Below, in pieces: positions 31,245 through 38,763 of a DNA stretch of 64,000 bases. A model generated the notes under the pieces. It had not been told where the DNA came from. It ran no database searches and saw only the letters and a program-made list of their open reading frames with translations. The DNA is taken from the NCBI RefSeq assembly GCF_002844235.1, contig NZ_PGTS01000002.1, positions 248,001 to 312,000 of the forward strand, written 5' to 3'. Numbering within the stretch: the first letter of the stretch is position 1; each line of letters opens with the position of its first letter. A program made the translations under genes and the position numbers. This DNA comes from Thalassospira povalilytica (GTDB lineage Bacteria; Pseudomonadota; Alphaproteobacteria; Rhodospirillales; Thalassospiraceae).

Positions 31245-32540
31245 ATGACCAATGTTGCCGTGATCGGTTCCCAGTGGGGGGACGAAGGTAAAGGCAAGAT
31301 CGTCGACTGGCTGTCCGAACGGGCCGATGTCGTTGTGCGTTTCCAGGGTGGTCATAACGCCGGTCATACTTTGGTGATCGATGGCGTGACCTATAAACTC
31401 AGCCTGCTGCCGTCCGGCATTGTTCGCCAGAACAAGCTGTCTGTAATCGGCAACGGCGTTGTTGTTGATCCTTGGGCGTTGCTTGCCGAAATCGGCCGCC
31501 TGAAAGAGCAGGGCGTGGATATCACCCCGGAAAACCTGCGTCTGGCGGAAAACGCCTGCCTGATCCTGCCGCTGCATGGCAATCTGGATCGTGCACGCGA
31601 AGCAGCGGCATCGGGTGACAACAAGATCGGCACCACCGGTCGCGGTATCGGCCCGGCTTATGAAGACCGTGTTGGTCGTCGTGCGATCCGCGTTGGTGAT
31701 CTGGCTGATGTTGATCTGCTTGAGGCAAAGGTTGAAAACCTTCTGACCCACCATAATGCGCTTCTGCGTGGTCTTGGTCAGCCGGAAGTCGACGGGGCAG
31801 AGCTTCTTGCCCAGCTTAAGGAAATCGCGCCGAAAATCCTGCCGTTCTCTGACACCGTCTGGAAATCGCTGAACCAGTTCAAGGAAGCTGGCAAGCGTAT
31901 TCTGTTTGAAGGTGCCCAGGGCACGATGCTTGACATTGATCACGGTACTTATCCGTTCGTGACGTCTTCAAACACGGTATCGGGGCAGGCCGCTGCCGGT
32001 TCCGGTATGGGCCCGTCCGGTGTTGGTTATGTTCTTGGTATCACCAAGGCCTATACCACCCGTGTCGGCGAAGGACCGTTCCCGTCCGAACTGTTTGACG
32101 CAGATGGCGAACGTCTTGGCGAACGTGGCCGTGAATTCGGCGTTGTGACCGGCCGTAAACGTCGTTGTGGCTGGTTTGATGCCGCACTGGTGCGCCAGTC
32201 GGTCAAAGTCAACGGCATCACCGGCATCGCACTGACCAAGCTTGACGTGCTTGACGGTTTTGATGAAATCAAGATCTGCACCGGCTATGACATTGACGGA
32301 AAGATCTATGATCATCTTCCGGCCAACCAGCGACTTCAGGCCAAGGCAAAGCCGGTTTATGAAACCATCGAAGGCTGGTCGGAAACGACCATGGGTGCGC
32401 GCAGCTGGGCTGATCTTCCGGCAGCAGCCATCAAATATGTTCGCCGCATCGAAGAACTGATCGAAGCGCCGGTGGCATTGCTGTCAACCAGCCCGGAACG
32501 TGATGACACCATTCTGGTTCACGACCCGTTCAGCGCCTGA
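31245..32540 (+). CDS. purA: Adenylosuccinate synthetase
   Basis: The 431-residue protein has the full PurA signature: [18 protein letters not shown] with the GTP loop GDEGKGK and catalytic Asp, GGHNAGHT with the catalytic His, and [10 protein letters not shown]. It joins IMP and aspartate using GTP, the first committed step to AMP. Length is standard. AAGGAG lies 9 bases before the ATG. A strong terminator follows at 32565. Confidence 0.98.
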
Positions 32541-32564
32541 TACAGGGTTTGTGCATCGCACAGC

Positions 32565-32596
32565 AAAAGCCACCAGTTCCGACTGGTGGCTTTTTT
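32565..32596 (+). terminator. Rho-independent terminator of purA
   Basis: AAAAGCCACCAGT and ACTGGTGGCTTTT form a perfect stem around a TCCG loop, ending in six T residues, 25 bases after the purA stop. The rest of the gap to 32788 holds no clear feature. Confidence 0.9.
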
Positions 32597-32788
32597 CGTT
32601 TTGTCTGAATGTGTTGTCGCATGCAGGCCCGGTGTGCCGGTCGCATAACAGCTTGCTCGTGTGGCGTATCAGAAGTATCGTTTTATCAACCTTTTGACGG
32701 TAGCGTACTGAATGTCGCGTCAGGATGACGGTTCATCAGATCATGCGCGTCACCAAATAACGATAACTCGTAAAGAAATATCGGGATC

Positions 32789-34933
32789 ATGGCAGAGCAA
32801 GCAGAAGACCAGGAACAGGAAGTTTCGAGCGGTGCTGCGCGAGAACCAGTGATGGATGCGCCGGGCGGCGGTGCGCCTGCGCCCGAAGAACCCGATGAAG
32901 CCAACCCCGAAGCCGGTCCGGAAAATGTCGAGTTTTCAACCGGCGGCAAAAGCATCGAAATCGGCAATTTCCGGGTCTTTCTTGATCTGCGTATGCCGGA
33001 ATTTGATATGGGCCCGTGCAAGGCCTATTCCGCTGATAATTTACGCCGCGATGAAGGCAGTGCGTTTGCGGTTGTTGCCGACCCGGCCTTGCCAACCCGT
33101 CAGGAACATATCAACTTTCTGACCGGTATGCATATGGCAGGTCAGATTGACCTGCTTGACAGCGAGATTGCCTATTGGCCGCCATTCGGGCGCAACACCA
33201 TGGTGTTGTTCTATGAAAAGCCCGCTGGCGGTCGTGTCGTCACTGGTGAAAGCAAAAAGGCGACCATCGACGAACATGAAATCGGCACAGTGGTCATCGA
33301 ACCGCTTATGGGTGTGTTGCAGTCCTTTGGCGAAAAAAATCTGGCACATCGCAATATTCGTGCTGGCAACCTGTTTTATGCTGACCCGTTGCGCCAGAAA
33401 GTCGTTCTGGGGGATTGTGCTGCGACACCGCCGGGCTATGCCCAGCCGCTTGTCTATGAAACAACCGCCAGAATGAGCGCCGATGCCGCAGGTCGCGGAT
33501 CGGGTACCATCATGGACGATCTGTATGCCCTGGGCATGACATTGGCGGAACTCGGGATCGGTCACCGTCCGCTCAGCAAACTGGGCGATCAGGAGATCAT
33601 GGATCTCAAACTGGCAAAGGGATCGTTTCAGGCAATTGCATCACAGGAAAGATTGCCACTGGTTCTGATCGAGCCGGTTCGCGGATTGCTTTGTGATGAT
33701 CCCGAAGAACGCTGGGGCTTTGCCGAACTGAATGCATGGCTGGACGGTCGCCGGACCAAGCCGGTACAGGCCAATAGCGAAAAACGCGCCGCACGATCCC
33801 AGAACCTGTCGGGGCGTGACTACTATACCGTGCGTTCCCTTGCCCAAGGTATGGCAAAGAACTGGGTCAGTGCACTTGCGCCATTGCGCGACGGCACGAT
33901 CGAGATTTGGCTGCGGCGCGGTCTTGGCGACAATGACCGGGCCAAGGCACTTGCAGATGCCATGCGGCAGTTGCAATGGGCAGGCGCGGACAAGCGTGCG
34001 GCCGAGGATGTTCTGGTCGCACGTGCTATCCTGATCATGGATCATCAGGGACCGGTCCGGTTCAAGGGCTTTTCGGCCATGGTCGATGGTCTTGGATATA
34101 TGTTGTCCTATGACGTGCAGCATGGACGTGGCCCACAGCGATTTGCCGATGTGATCGTCCGCGATATTCCGGCCTACTGGTTTGGCCGCCAGGAAGGCTT
34201 CAGCCCGGAAATTCAAAAGCTTCAGCAGGTATATAAAAACCTGCGCTATTACGTTCAGCAACAAAGTGCCGGTTATGGCTATGAGCGTTGTCTTTACGCG
34301 CTTGTGCGCAACCAGCATTGCCTGAGCCCGATGATCGAACAGGAATATGTTGTTGAAATTTCGCAACTTCTTCCAGCACTCGAAAAGGCAGCGGAAAGTG
34401 CGTCTGAAGACAGCTGGCCGGTGGATCGCCATATTGCTGCATTCATCGCCACCCGTCTTGAAGATGATATCGAAGGCCAGTTGATGGCCATGCAAAACCC
34501 GTCTGACGAGGTCGAATACAGCCGCGCCATCATCAGTATGCTGGCGATTGTGCAATGGCGTCACGGACCGGACAATTTGCAAAATCTGTCGCACTGGGTG
34601 GCGCGGCTTATGGAACCGGCCATCAAGGTATTCCACAGCAAGGCGCGTCGGGAACGGGTTGAAACCGAAATCCCGAAACTGGCCAAGCGCGGCAATCTGG
34701 TGGAGCTTTACAACCTGATCAACGATGAACAGGAACGCCGCAAGGATCAGTCCGAATTTGTCGAGGCCGTGGCTGAATATTCCGAAGCCGAAAGCGAGGT
34801 TTTTGACCTTGAATCTTCGGGGCCGGCGCGATTGGAACTTGCGGAAAAAGTCGGTCAGCAGGCCGCAGCATTCGCATCAACCATGATCGCGCTGCTGACG
34901 GTATCGGCACTGTTCTTGATGCATATCTTTTAA
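32789..34933 (+). CDS. Tail-anchored protein-kinase-like protein (predicted pseudokinase)
   Basis: The 714-residue protein has a disordered acidic N-terminus (about 1-50), a kinase-like domain (about 55-330), a long helical region (about 350-690) and one C-terminal membrane helix (about 694-712), so it should be tail-anchored with everything else in the cytoplasm. Kinase landmarks are degenerate: the ATP-binding Lys expected in AFAVVADPALP is absent, HRD reads H-R-N (AHRNIRAGNLF, near 187-189), and DFG reads D-C-A (VVLGDCAATPPG). The structural DDLYALGMTLAEL is kept. Catalysis is unlikely; binding or scaffolding is more plausible. It is nine bases ahead of a small membrane protein gene. Confidence 0.7.
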   Translation: MAEQAEDQEQEVSSGAAREPVMDAPGGGAPAPEEPDEANPEAGPENVEFSTGGKSIEIGNFRVFLDLRMPEFDMGPCKAYSADNLRRDEGSAFAVVADPALPTRQEHINFLTGMHMAGQIDLLDSEIAYWPPFGRNTMVLFYEKPAGGRVVTGESKKATIDEHEIGTVVIEPLMGVLQSFGEKNLAHRNIRAGNLFYADPLRQKVVLGDCAATPPGYAQPLVYETTARMSADAAGRGSGTIMDDLYALGMTLAELGIGHRPLSKLGDQEIMDLKLAKGSFQAIASQERLPLVLIEPVRGLLCDDPEERWGFAELNAWLDGRRTKPVQANSEKRAARSQNLSGRDYYTVRSLAQGMAKNWVSALAPLRDGTIEIWLRRGLGDNDRAKALADAMRQLQWAGADKRAAEDVLVARAILIMDHQGPVRFKGFSAMVDGLGYMLSYDVQHGRGPQRFADVIVRDIPAYWFGRQEGFSPEIQKLQQVYKNLRYYVQQQSAGYGYERCLYALVRNQHCLSPMIEQEYVVEISQLLPALEKAAESASEDSWPVDRHIAAFIATRLEDDIEGQLMAMQNPSDEVEYSRAIISMLAIVQWRHGPDNLQNLSHWVARLMEPAIKVFHSKARRERVETEIPKLAKRGNLVELYNLINDEQERRKDQSEFVEAVAEYSEAESEVFDLESSGPARLELAEKVGQQAAAFASTMIALLTVSALFLMHIF

Positions 34934-34942
34934 GGGATCGAC

Positions 34943-35422
34943 ATGGCAAAAGGTAAAAGCACCAAAAAGGGCGGCCGCAGCGCATTTTCCGGTTTGTCCG
35001 TGGTTGCATCTGCTGTGCTGCTATTCATGGTCGCCCTGCCGACCTTTGTGACATTGGTGGTCGGCTTGTTGCCGTCGCTGGTCGCGTTCATTTTCGATCG
35101 CAGCCCGGGCCGGACCATGGCGCGTTGTGTGTTTGGTCTGAATTTTTCCGGTGTCGCACCCTATATCCTTGAACTGTGGCAAGTGCCGTCGCAAACGGTG
35201 GGCGGTGCGACCCAGCAGATCTTTCAGCCACTGGCATTATCAATCATGTACGGGGCGGCGGGCCTTGGCTGGTTGTTGTATCTTGCGATGCCGCCGATCG
35301 TTGCCAATGTGCTTAATCTTTCTGCCCAGCGCCGGGTAGGGGAGCTTCGCAAAAAACAGCGTGCCCTGATCAAAACCTGGGGCGACAGCCTGATCAAGGA
35401 AGTCGACCGGTCCGGGAACTGA
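34943..35422 (+). CDS. Small multi-pass membrane protein, partner of the pseudokinase gene
   Basis: The 159-residue protein has a basic N-terminus (MAKGKSTKKGG), two close hydrophobic segments (about 17-36 and 38-53), one or two more (about 92-124) and a basic cytoplasmic C-terminus (RRVGELRKKQRALIK). I do not recognise the family. It begins nine bases after the pseudokinase stop with AAGGGA upstream, so the two are cotranscribed and likely act together at the inner membrane. A convergent terminator and rpoH follow. Confidence 0.68.
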   Translation: MAKGKSTKKGGRSAFSGLSVVASAVLLFMVALPTFVTLVVGLLPSLVAFIFDRSPGRTMARCVFGLNFSGVAPYILELWQVPSQTVGGATQQIFQPLALSIMYGAAGLGWLLYLAMPPIVANVLNLSAQRRVGELRKKQRALIKTWGDSLIKEVDRSGN

Positions 35423-35463
35423 TCATGCCATGATGTTTTGATCCGACCCACATCATCGATGAC

Positions 35464-35493
35464 ATAAAAAACGGCGGACAATTTGTCCGCCGT
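35464..35493 (-). terminator. Rho-independent terminator of rpoH
   Basis: ACGGCGGACA (35471-35480) and TGTCCGCCGT (35484-35493) form a perfect stem; on the minus strand the arm is followed by a T run (from the A run at 35465-35471). It lies 40 bases after the rpoH stop, in the convergent gap. Confidence 0.88.
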
Positions 35494-35530
35494 AGTTCGT
35501 TGCAAGGGGGAAGAGGGCTGGTAAGCACCA

Positions 35531-36397
35531 TTAGTGTGGCAGATCGCTGTGGATCGATTTACGGACTTTTTCAAAGGCCCGGACTTCGATCTGCCGGATG
35601 CGTTCGCGTGAAATACCATAGGCGACACTGAGGTTTTCCAGAGTAACCGGGCTTTCAAGCAGGCGACGCTGGGTCAGAATGTCACGTTCGCGATCGTTAA
35701 GATGCGACATGGCACTTTTAAGCATATTCATCCGTTGCAGGAATTCTTCACGTTTGCCGTAAAGGGTTTCCTGGTCTTCGTCGTCGCTTTCGATCCAGTC
35801 GACCCATTCACCATCGCCGTCAACACGGACAGGTGCATTGAGCGAATGATCAGGACCGGCAAGGCGACGGTTCATCATAATCACGTCATCTTCGGAAACA
35901 TTCAGCTTGGTCGCGATGAGTTCGACCTGTTCTGGTAACAGATCCCCTTCATCAATCGCCTGCATCTGGCTTTTGAGTTTGCGAAGATTAAAGAACAATT
36001 TCTTCTGCGCGGCCGTGGTGCCCATTTTCACAAGCGACCAGGAATGTAGGATGTATTCCTGAATGGCTGCGCGGATCCACCACATGGCGTAGGTTGCAAG
36101 CCGGAAACCCTTGTCAGGGTCAAAACGTTTGACAGATTGCAGCAGGCCCACGTTGCCTTCGGAAATCAATTCATTCAAAGGCAGACCATAGCCGCGATAG
36201 CTCATGGCAATCTTGGCAACCAGTCGCAGATGGCTTGTAATCAGTTTTTCCGCCGACTTGTCACAATCGTTGTCGCGGAAATTGCATGCGTACGTCGTTT
36301 CCTGTTCGGGGGTAAGCATCGGGTAACGTCGGATACGCTGCAAATATACAGTCAGACCATCCTGAGAGATTACTGGCAGAGCATTTCCCTGTTTCAT
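35531..36397 (-). CDS. rpoH: RNA polymerase sigma-32 factor
   Basis: The 288-residue protein has sigma regions 1.2, 2 and 4; region 2.3 ends YAMWWIRAAIQEYILHSWSL, and the RpoH box QKKLFFNLRKLK, specific to heat-shock sigma factors, follows it. Region 4.2 (VAYGISRERIRQIEVRAFEKVR) is intact. It directs transcription of chaperone and protease genes. GGGAGG precedes the ATG, and a good sigma-70 promoter lies 57-84 bases upstream. It is downstream of rluD on the same strand. Confidence 0.97.
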   Translation of the reverse strand: MKQGNALPVISQDGLTVYLQRIRRYPMLTPEQETTYACNFRDNDCDKSAEKLITSHLRLVAKIAMSYRGYGLPLNELISEGNVGLLQSVKRFDPDKGFRLATYAMWWIRAAIQEYILHSWSLVKMGTTAAQKKLFFNLRKLKSQMQAIDEGDLLPEQVELIATKLNVSEDDVIMMNRRLAGPDHSLNAPVRVDGDGEWVDWIESDDEDQETLYGKREEFLQRMNMLKSAMSHLNDRERDILTQRRLLESPVTLENLSVAYGISRERIRQIEVRAFEKVRKSIHSDLPH

Positions 36398-37823: not shown

Positions 37824-38210
37824 ATGCGTTTAGTTAAGGCCTTGGTTGTGTTCATGGGGGTGCTGATCGTGATCGGCATCGGGCTTGTTGCCTATGGGCT
37901 GTCACTTGATAAAAACGCCAAGGAAGCAGATAGCACCGATACGGGGCAGGCGCCTTCGGTTCCGATCGCTGGCCTTGATAACGGCCCGCAGGTGGCGACC
38001 GGATTTTCCGGTGCACCCGTCATCCCGGATTTTGGTGACATCACTATCGATATTGCACCTGGCGAAGTGCTGGTCGCTTATTCCGTTCAGGGAACACAGG
38101 CAATCCTGCATATCGAAGGCCCGGATGGACTTGGTGCGCGTCTTGTTATTGTGTCGCTGACCGATAAAAAGGTCCTTGGTCGTATTGTTTTGAATGCTGA
38201 CGGCCAATAG
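37824..38210 (+). CDS. DUF6476-like single-pass membrane protein
   Basis: This 128-residue protein has one N-terminal transmembrane helix (about 3-26, LVKALVVFMGVLIVIGIGLVAYGL) and a small periplasmic domain with VAYSVQGTQAILHIEGPDG and a final VLGRIVLNADGQ. It resembles the DUF6476 family, whose genes often lie divergent from rluD as here; that is from memory. Start at 37824 has GGAAAC before it; a TTG at 37809 is the alternative. It may share a transcript with the JAMM peptidase gene. Confidence 0.65.
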   Translation: MRLVKALVVFMGVLIVIGIGLVAYGLSLDKNAKEADSTDTGQAPSVPIAGLDNGPQVATGFSGAPVIPDFGDITIDIAPGEVLVAYSVQGTQAILHIEGPDGLGARLVIVSLTDKKVLGRIVLNADGQ

Positions 38211-38268
38211 GGTTTGCGCAGGCGATCAGACAGGCCAAGAAGGGCAGGACAAACAGGATAGCGGCAGC

Positions 38269-38763
38269 ATGACAAATCAGAAAGCCTGCGACACCGGCGA
38301 TCATTCGGCTGTCATTCTGTCTGCTGACCTGCATCAGGAAATGTGCAATCTGGCCGCAATGCAATGGCCGGAAGAATGCTGTGGGCTTCTTGTTGCGTCA
38401 AAGCAGACACCAAACCGGATCCGTCGGGTGGTGGCAGCACGCAATGTTGCCGATGATCCGCTCAGAACCTTTGAAATTGATCCGCAAACCCTGATTGATA
38501 CCTATCGTCTGGCCCGTCAAAGCGGTGACGAGGTGGTGGGCTGCTTTCATTCGCATCCAAATGGCAGTGTCTTGCCCTCAACAACGGATCGTGGTCGTGC
38601 CGATGTGGACGGTTTTTTGTGGCTGATAATTGCCACTGACAATTCCGGGGTTCTGGACAGCCGCATGTATCGCGCACATCATCAGAAGCCGACAAACGGG
38701 CAGGACGGCGATGTTATTCGCTATTTCCGGCGATGTGTTCTGACGGATGGCAACCCGTCGTGA
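38269..38763 (+). CDS. M67 (JAMM/MPN+) family metallopeptidase
   Basis: The 164-residue protein carries a complete JAMM motif: the catalytic Glu in WPEECCGLL and HSHPNGSVLPSTTD, giving H-x-H-x7-S-x2-D for zinc. Bacterial single-domain members trim or process ubiquitin-like sulfur carriers such as ThiS or MoaD relatives, but no such partner gene is near. Start at MTNQKACDTG (38269) is preceded by AGGA. It follows the DUF6476-like gene by 58 bases and is convergent with the HD-GYP gene. Confidence 0.85.
   Translation: MTNQKACDTGDHSAVILSADLHQEMCNLAAMQWPEECCGLLVASKQTPNRIRRVVAARNVADDPLRTFEIDPQTLIDTYRLARQSGDEVVGCFHSHPNGSVLPSTTDRGRADVDGFLWLIIATDNSGVLDSRMYRAHHQKPTNGQDGDVIRYFRRCVLTDGNPS

Follow-up and report, generated by a model that had tools for sequence, protein, structure and literature searches.

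In a 64,000-nucleotide stretch of the Thalassospira povalilytica genome (contig NZ_PGTS01000002.1; the whole stretch is called the window here), two adjacent genes encode a degenerate kinase, which we term PK, and a small membrane protein, SMP. The evidence is solid that PK represents a pseudokinase family that is widespread in Alphaproteobacteria and has a dedicated membrane partner. This family is apparently undescribed so far, and no paper on the PK–SMP pair was recognised in literature searches. The conserved pair points to a two-part membrane complex that is likewise undescribed. The likeliest mechanism is that PK serves as a non-phosphorylating cytosolic scaffold or switch that is kept in the inner membrane with SMP.

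Bacterial pseudokinases have been little studied. PK is strongly conserved and occurs in, among others, Azospirillum, Magnetospirillum and Thalassospira, and its partner is strongly supported by gene coupling. The protein also offers a confident model of a domain for which no structural match was found, together with related intact kinases for comparison. This family therefore provides a clean test case for the role of a bacterial pseudokinase.

A kinase fold that has lost two catalytic residues

The open reading frame (ORF) of PK begins with an ATG at position 32789 of the forward strand and ends with a stop at 34933 (714 residues). Nine bases further on, the 159-residue SMP begins at an ATG at 34943, with its stop at 35422 on the same strand. 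Both ORFs lie where an initial annotation, made from the sequence alone, had placed them. PK is further supported by profile matches, orthologues and a structural model (predicted local distance difference test score 85.3), and SMP is supported by a family alignment and co-occurrence.

The initial annotation proposed a kinase fold for PK, and the model indeed has two lobes of this type (residues 53–322; 32945..33754, forward strand, as for all PK features below). The Pfam Pkinase model matches residues 137–314 with 20.4 bits, under its curated cut-off of 31.7. A profile made from 61 diverse sequences of the family aligns with kinases of solved structure at a best E value of 4.2e-15. The best NCBIfam match is the class IV lanthionine synthetase LanL (36.6 bits, residues 169–359), but this score is far under the cut-off of 650 and covers only positions 303–488 of 851. 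The predicted landmark DDLYALG is present at residues 243–249.

Alignment of the PK profile with kinases places V96 at the beta3 Lys, N189 at the HRD Asp and D209 at the DFG Asp. Residues at these positions were counted in an alignment of 181 family ORFs from 178 loci, of which 146 are distinct. The distinct set is rich in close Thalassospira sequences, and the 61 diverse members were used as a check. At the beta3 site (A94-V95-V96; 33068..33076), the ATP-binding Lys is replaced by V in 77 sequences, I in 53, L in 13, A in two and R in one. None of the 146 has a Lys at residues 95–97, which bears out the claimed loss. The catalytic loop reads HRNIRAGN (residues 187–194; 33347..33370), with the anticipated HRN for HRD. 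The position of the catalytic Asp is occupied by A (77), N (29, the window's PK among them), S (21), G (9), R (3), C (2) and by D, E, K, Q and M once each. The single orthologue with this Asp (L113, genome G443; motif HGDIRPTN) lacks the Lys and has Glu at the DFG Asp position. Lys and HRD Asp occur together in none of the 146 distinct sequences.

The reading of DCA for DFG was correct for the motif (LGDCA, residues 207–211) but not for a loss of the Asp itself, which is retained as D209 (G208-D209-C210; 33410..33418). Among the 146, this position holds Asp in 102, Glu in 36, Pro in five and Gln in three. Thus, of the classical triad, PK retains the DFG Asp but neither the Lys nor the HRD Asp. 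By sequence, a pseudokinase lacks at least one of these three residues, and this holds across the family. The diverse set gives the same picture (Lys 0, HRD Asp 1 and metal-binding Asn 59 of 61), except that residue 209 is evenly split there between Asp (27) and Glu (27).

PK lacks the catalytic base and the Lys, while the Asn, the acidic residue, H187 and R191 remain. Such retention could indicate that the kinase domain is still an unusual enzyme, which binds nucleotide through the Asn, the acidic residue and arginines and catalyses another transfer, like the pseudokinases SelO and SidJ, to which PMC12599244 ascribes other chemistry. N194 is found in 144 of the 146 sequences, H187 in 140, R191 in 139 and an acidic residue 209 in 138 (R188 in 127), and the corresponding values in the diverse set are 59, 58, 56 and 54 of 61. 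R104 is present in 92% of the latter, and the catalytic loop is among the most conserved stretches. Moreover, modelled ATP binding in DLHK kinases is reported to involve arginines, including one from the catalytic loop (PMC12599244). In contrast, no base occupies the HRD Asp position, and no N-lobe position has Lys in at least 30% of the 61 sequences, which argues against a relocated Lys. SelO retains a Lys in the corresponding motif (PMC12599244, Table 1). A glycine loop is also lacking, as Gly reaches at least half of the diverse sequences only at positions 118 and 126 of residues 53–145. We therefore consider an enzymatic role of this kind unlikely.

Coupling of PK and SMP

SMP lies directly downstream of 134 of the 146 distinct PK genes (tblastn, within 1.5 kb). 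With duplicates included, the proportion is 169 of 181, and a more stringent search with an ORF profile gives 159 of 181. At six loci without an adjacent SMP (L058, L073, L078, L082, L090 and L097), every genome holds the gene elsewhere. The PK ORF of L103 is over-long and has the SMP match inside its span, L121 is at a contig end, and genome G400 (L158) has SMP on another contig. In two genomes in which the pair is split, SMP adjoins rpoH and a pseudouridine synthase gene that we label rluD (L209 and L212), and in G268 it is beside rpoH (L216). The locus therefore appears to be broken between PK and SMP in the split genomes, with both genes retained.

We found PK in 131 of 385 genomes sampled across Alphaproteobacteria. 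SMP, which was sought within this class, is present in 135 genomes of the sample, comprising all 131 with PK and four others. Two of these four matches are at contig ends (G131 and G144) and two are weak (G103 and G449; E values 1.5e-4 and 4.3e-4). PK is present in 85 of the genomes of 100 relatives; 84 of the 100 have both genes, 13 have neither, one has PK only (G052, at a contig end) and two have SMP only (G035, at a contig end, and G097). The initial annotation had raised the question of adjacency across the Rhodospirillales. The pair does stay together, but its range is wider, at about a third of the sampled alphaproteobacterial genomes.

Three loci (L139, L140 and L141) have the arrangement PK-SMP-PK-SMP. 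Between L139 and L140, which are from one genus, agreement is 68% for the first PK copies and 67% for the first SMP copies, and 75% and 71% for the second ones, whereas copies within one genome agree at only 44–46% and 30–36%. Distances between PK proteins also correlate with those between SMP proteins (rho 0.54; partial 0.49 given PurA) in 42 loci, dereplicated from 126 that each contain a single PK, PurA and SMP. None of 2000 label permutations reached this level. Together, these genomic patterns are strong evidence that PK and SMP are functionally coupled, although coupling does not prove contact.

SMP has hydrophobic segments at residues 22–40, 60–78 and 98–116, followed by a C-terminal stretch with a conserved WG. 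It has no consistent sequence relative in Pfam or PDB, in agreement with its description as an unrecognised membrane protein.

The helical domain, the tail helix and a possible mechanism

Beyond the kinase domain, PK has a C-terminal helical domain (residues 331–688; 33779..34852) and a tail helix. The first had been described as a long helical regulatory region; it is helical, and it is modelled as a well-ordered domain. No structural match was found for this confident model. Two signatures stand out within it: G495-x-G-x-E-R-x-x-Y503 ... C511-x-S513 (34271..34327) and D546-R-H548-I-A-A-F552 (34424..34444). Y503 and C511 are invariant in the 61 diverse sequences, as is D244 of the kinase part, and G495, G497, E499, S513, D546 and H548 each exceed 95%. 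Of eleven regions compared, residues 544–553 have the highest mean information (3.22 bits), followed by the catalytic loop (3.0 bits) and residues 494–516 (2.78 bits).

The single membrane helix predicted for the tail is at about residues 689–711 (34853..34921). Family-mean hydropathy is 2.19 in the segment starting at residue 692, and G689 is present in 92% of the 61 sequences. A hydrophobic helix occurs within the last 45 residues of 175 of 180 family ORFs, with one of the 181, longer than 800 amino acids, left out.

In comparisons with five other genomes within Thalassospira, the ratio of nonsynonymous to synonymous substitution rates (dN/dS) is 0.05–0.09 for the kinase part, 0.02–0.04 for the helical domain and 0.015–0.09 for SMP, where dS above 1 in most comparisons makes the ratios rough. 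For the tail helix, the ratio is defined in four of these comparisons, where it is 0 to 0.03, and in the fifth dN is 0. Such near-fixation suggests that the helix packs specifically and does more than anchor the protein. The low ratios also bear on whether an old kinase gene is simply decaying, held beside SMP by synteny inertia. The loss of catalytic residues would be expected in this case, but constraint on both PK domains (five comparisons, dS mostly saturated), the occurrence of PK in 131 class genomes and the retention of both genes where the pair was split already contradict it, and we give decay almost no credence.

We propose with moderate confidence that PK and SMP form one inner-membrane complex in which a non-phosphorylating kinase domain orients a helical output domain. 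PK and SMP would be the two subunits of this alphaproteobacterial complex. PK would be cytosolic and held by its single tail helix, and SMP would be its dedicated multi-pass membrane partner, touching at least that helix. The kinase domain would no longer phosphorylate and would have turned into a scaffold, either responsive to a ligand or purely structural, by which the helical domain is oriented. The helical domain is the likely output surface, and it carries two of the most constrained signatures of the family. The data establish the modelled fold, the loss of the Lys and HRD Asp throughout the family, the tail helix, the coupling of the two genes and purifying selection; physical contact, the absence of phosphotransfer, the membrane topology and the direction of signalling are what we infer here. 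The initial annotation is thus partly supported, and the role that it suggested, in membrane signalling or as an envelope scaffold, is hypothetical. In a bolder version, the pair would be an undescribed membrane signalling device of Alphaproteobacteria. Its degenerate kinase domain would serve as a switch that senses a nucleotide or metal and, via SMP, drives a helical effector domain of new fold, possibly with a novel reaction that involves the near-invariant Tyr, Cys, Asp and His of the helical domain. We regard this version as improbable.

Several observations weigh against the proposed scaffold complex. Retention of N194 and an acidic residue 209 would be unexpected if the fold were purely structural. 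When means of whole regions are compared across the class, conservation is higher in the kinase C-lobe (2.19 bits) than in the helical domain (1.63–1.86 bits). The predicted membrane topology rests on hydropathy, and the distance correlation could mirror shared rate shifts. Second PK copies at L146, L148 and L150 have no adjacent SMP. Conversely, G097 is a real exception in which the order is hisZ-purA-SMP-rpoH-rluD (L204), with no PK match in the stretch, and G113 and G245, two genomes of the same genus, each combine four SMP matches with a single match to PK. SMP thus seems to have some use that is independent of PK. The extra SMP genes of G113 and G245 (L217–L222) are in other surroundings.

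These exceptions, along with strong constraint on SMP, would also fit a model in which SMP were the functional membrane protein (a channel, transporter or sensor) and PK its accessory regulator, which would make the pair a regulated device rather than a scaffold. However, SMP is a small protein in which just three hydrophobic segments are clear and for which Pfam and PDB hold no consistent sequence relative, and such a division of roles seems improbable. We favor the scaffold complex.

Relatives, distribution and genomic setting

Homologues with an intact Lys, HRD and DFG set, which the initial annotation named as evidence against its proposal, are absent from the orthologous family but do exist outside it. 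Among the best partial matches outside the class, L191–L193 are intact kinases of other Pseudomonadota (beta3 ILKF, ILKW or VIKY; HRDIKPGN; DFG). As in PK, the kinase is followed by sequence that weakly resembles, in one or several stretches, the beginning of the helical domain; unlike PK, they have all three motifs, and their alignments stop before the signature part. The outside-class alignments extend at most to profile position 455 of 678, and the first helical-domain part alone scores weakly, in three of six proteins. By eye, the L191 kinase adjoins ORFs resembling a PP2C phosphatase and a formylglycine-enzyme-type protein.

L194 and L195 are proteins of ∼2100–2400 amino acids with a degenerate kinase and the motifs AVLT (beta3), HRDLRP and GFG, which resemble those tabulated for DLHK kinases (AVLT, Hrdlrpas, GFG; PMC12599244). 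L194 additionally has DUF4011, AAA and nuclease domains, and it matches the NCBIfam anti-phage ProA model under cut-off. DLHK proteins, a proteobacterial bSTK family (e.g., P. aeruginosa Q9I0B5), share with PK an Arg at the catalytic-loop Lys position (HRxxRP) and the loss of the beta3 Lys, and in the DLHK-type L194 and L195, named by motif, the profile alignment likewise continues beyond the kinase domain. As described in PMC12599244, however, DLHK proteins keep the HRD Asp, have no transmembrane regions and are often fused to helicase domains, whereas PK has lost this Asp, is tail-anchored and carries a C-terminal domain that is its own. With HRD Asp in one of 146 sequences and a tail helix in 175 of 180, PK is not a DLHK member. 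From these sequence comparisons, PK is plausibly a degenerate branch beside DLHK.

MviN is a lipid II flippase. Its pseudokinase domain (ActPs3) is, like that of PK, a degenerate kinase domain in a membrane protein, but it is actinobacterial and has all three motifs degraded (PMC12599244), whereas PK keeps the Asn and the acidic metal-site residue. EssB/YukC, compared by description only, is also a membrane pseudokinase and non-catalytic scaffold, but is part of Firmicutes type VII secretion (PMC12599244). The families listed in PMC12599244 include ActPs1-3, GLW, CP1, DYD and DLHK, and by the definitions given there PK fits none of GLW, ActPs2, CP1, DYD and DLHK. ActPs1 and ActPs3 are marked by deletions in the kinase domain that are specific to each family. 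GLW has this motif replacing HRD, whereas PK orthologues have H187 in 140 and R188 in 127 of 146. ActPs2 has a beta3 Arg, an HRD Asn and a mostly deleted DFG, compared with Arg96 in one, Asn in 29 and D/E209 in 138 of the 146. CP1 has no transmembrane region, in contrast to the tail helix of PK. In Pfam searches, 25 family members gave only kinase-type and chance matches; the CP1-linked COG3899 was not sought by name. DYD replaces the beta3 Lys with Arg, found in one of 146 PK sequences, and a WNK-type arrangement, with the catalytic Lys on beta2, conflicts with the lack of a conserved N-lobe Lys (definitions from PMC12599244).

Named PK holders include Thalassospira, Magnetospirillum, Telmatospirillum, Roseospira, Terasakiella, Azospirillum, Niveispirillum and Skermanella. 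Across the phylum, PK matches occur in 35 of 398 sampled genomes. Sixteen of these matches are near full-length, all in Alphaproteobacteria (the gene is split in G046); in the other 19 genomes (two of the class and 17 of other classes), the match is confined to the kinase region or reaches a little past it. Scoring in the class and phylum samples was limited to two or three candidates per genome, so that copy numbers are lower bounds. Counter to restriction to the class, full-length relatives occur in metagenome bins titled Stygiobacter, Candidatus Marinimicrobia and uncultured Gammaproteobacteria, and partial matches at 25–28% identity on two Rhizobium plasmids. We take the odd titles as bin labels, which is unproven.

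Upstream of PK are hisZ and purA, and downstream, in convergent orientation, are rpoH and rluD, as judged by domain matches. The names hisZ, purA and rpoH are also those that the genes of this locus bear in the annotated Azospirillum thermophilum genome. Among 108 loci, of which about half are from Thalassospira and some are short, 101 have an upstream purA on the strand of the pair, and 70 have a convergent rpoH within 2.5 kb. The pair occurs in different surroundings at other loci (e.g., L056, L076, L094 and L154). These housekeeping neighbors do not name a function for PK–SMP, but they do bear on whether PK is an anti-phage defence kinase. Weak matches to NCBIfam MAD6 (20.3 bits) and PADLOC PD-T4-6 (E value 5e-06 at best) might hint at such a role. 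However, the MAD6 cut-off is 460 bits, and the matches fall in the kinase region, as those of any kinase would. Given also the conserved neighborhood and the single PK match in 114 of 131 genomes (at most three candidates scored in each; the 17 with more than one partly reflect pieces of one gene), a defence role is very improbable.

A terminator-like hairpin 3′ of purA (32565..32594, forward strand; 13-pair stem then a T run) parts PK–SMP from hisZ-purA, and another (35471..35493, reverse strand, that of rpoH; 10-pair stem then a T run) is between SMP and rpoH. Both are pattern matches only, and positions 32400–35600 contain five such sites compared with a mean of 3.7 after shuffling. PK and SMP may form a separate transcription unit. 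Judged by how close proteins are named, the window is also Thalassospira, and positions 38194–38763 of it encode a small Prok-JAB domain protein (74.1 bits).
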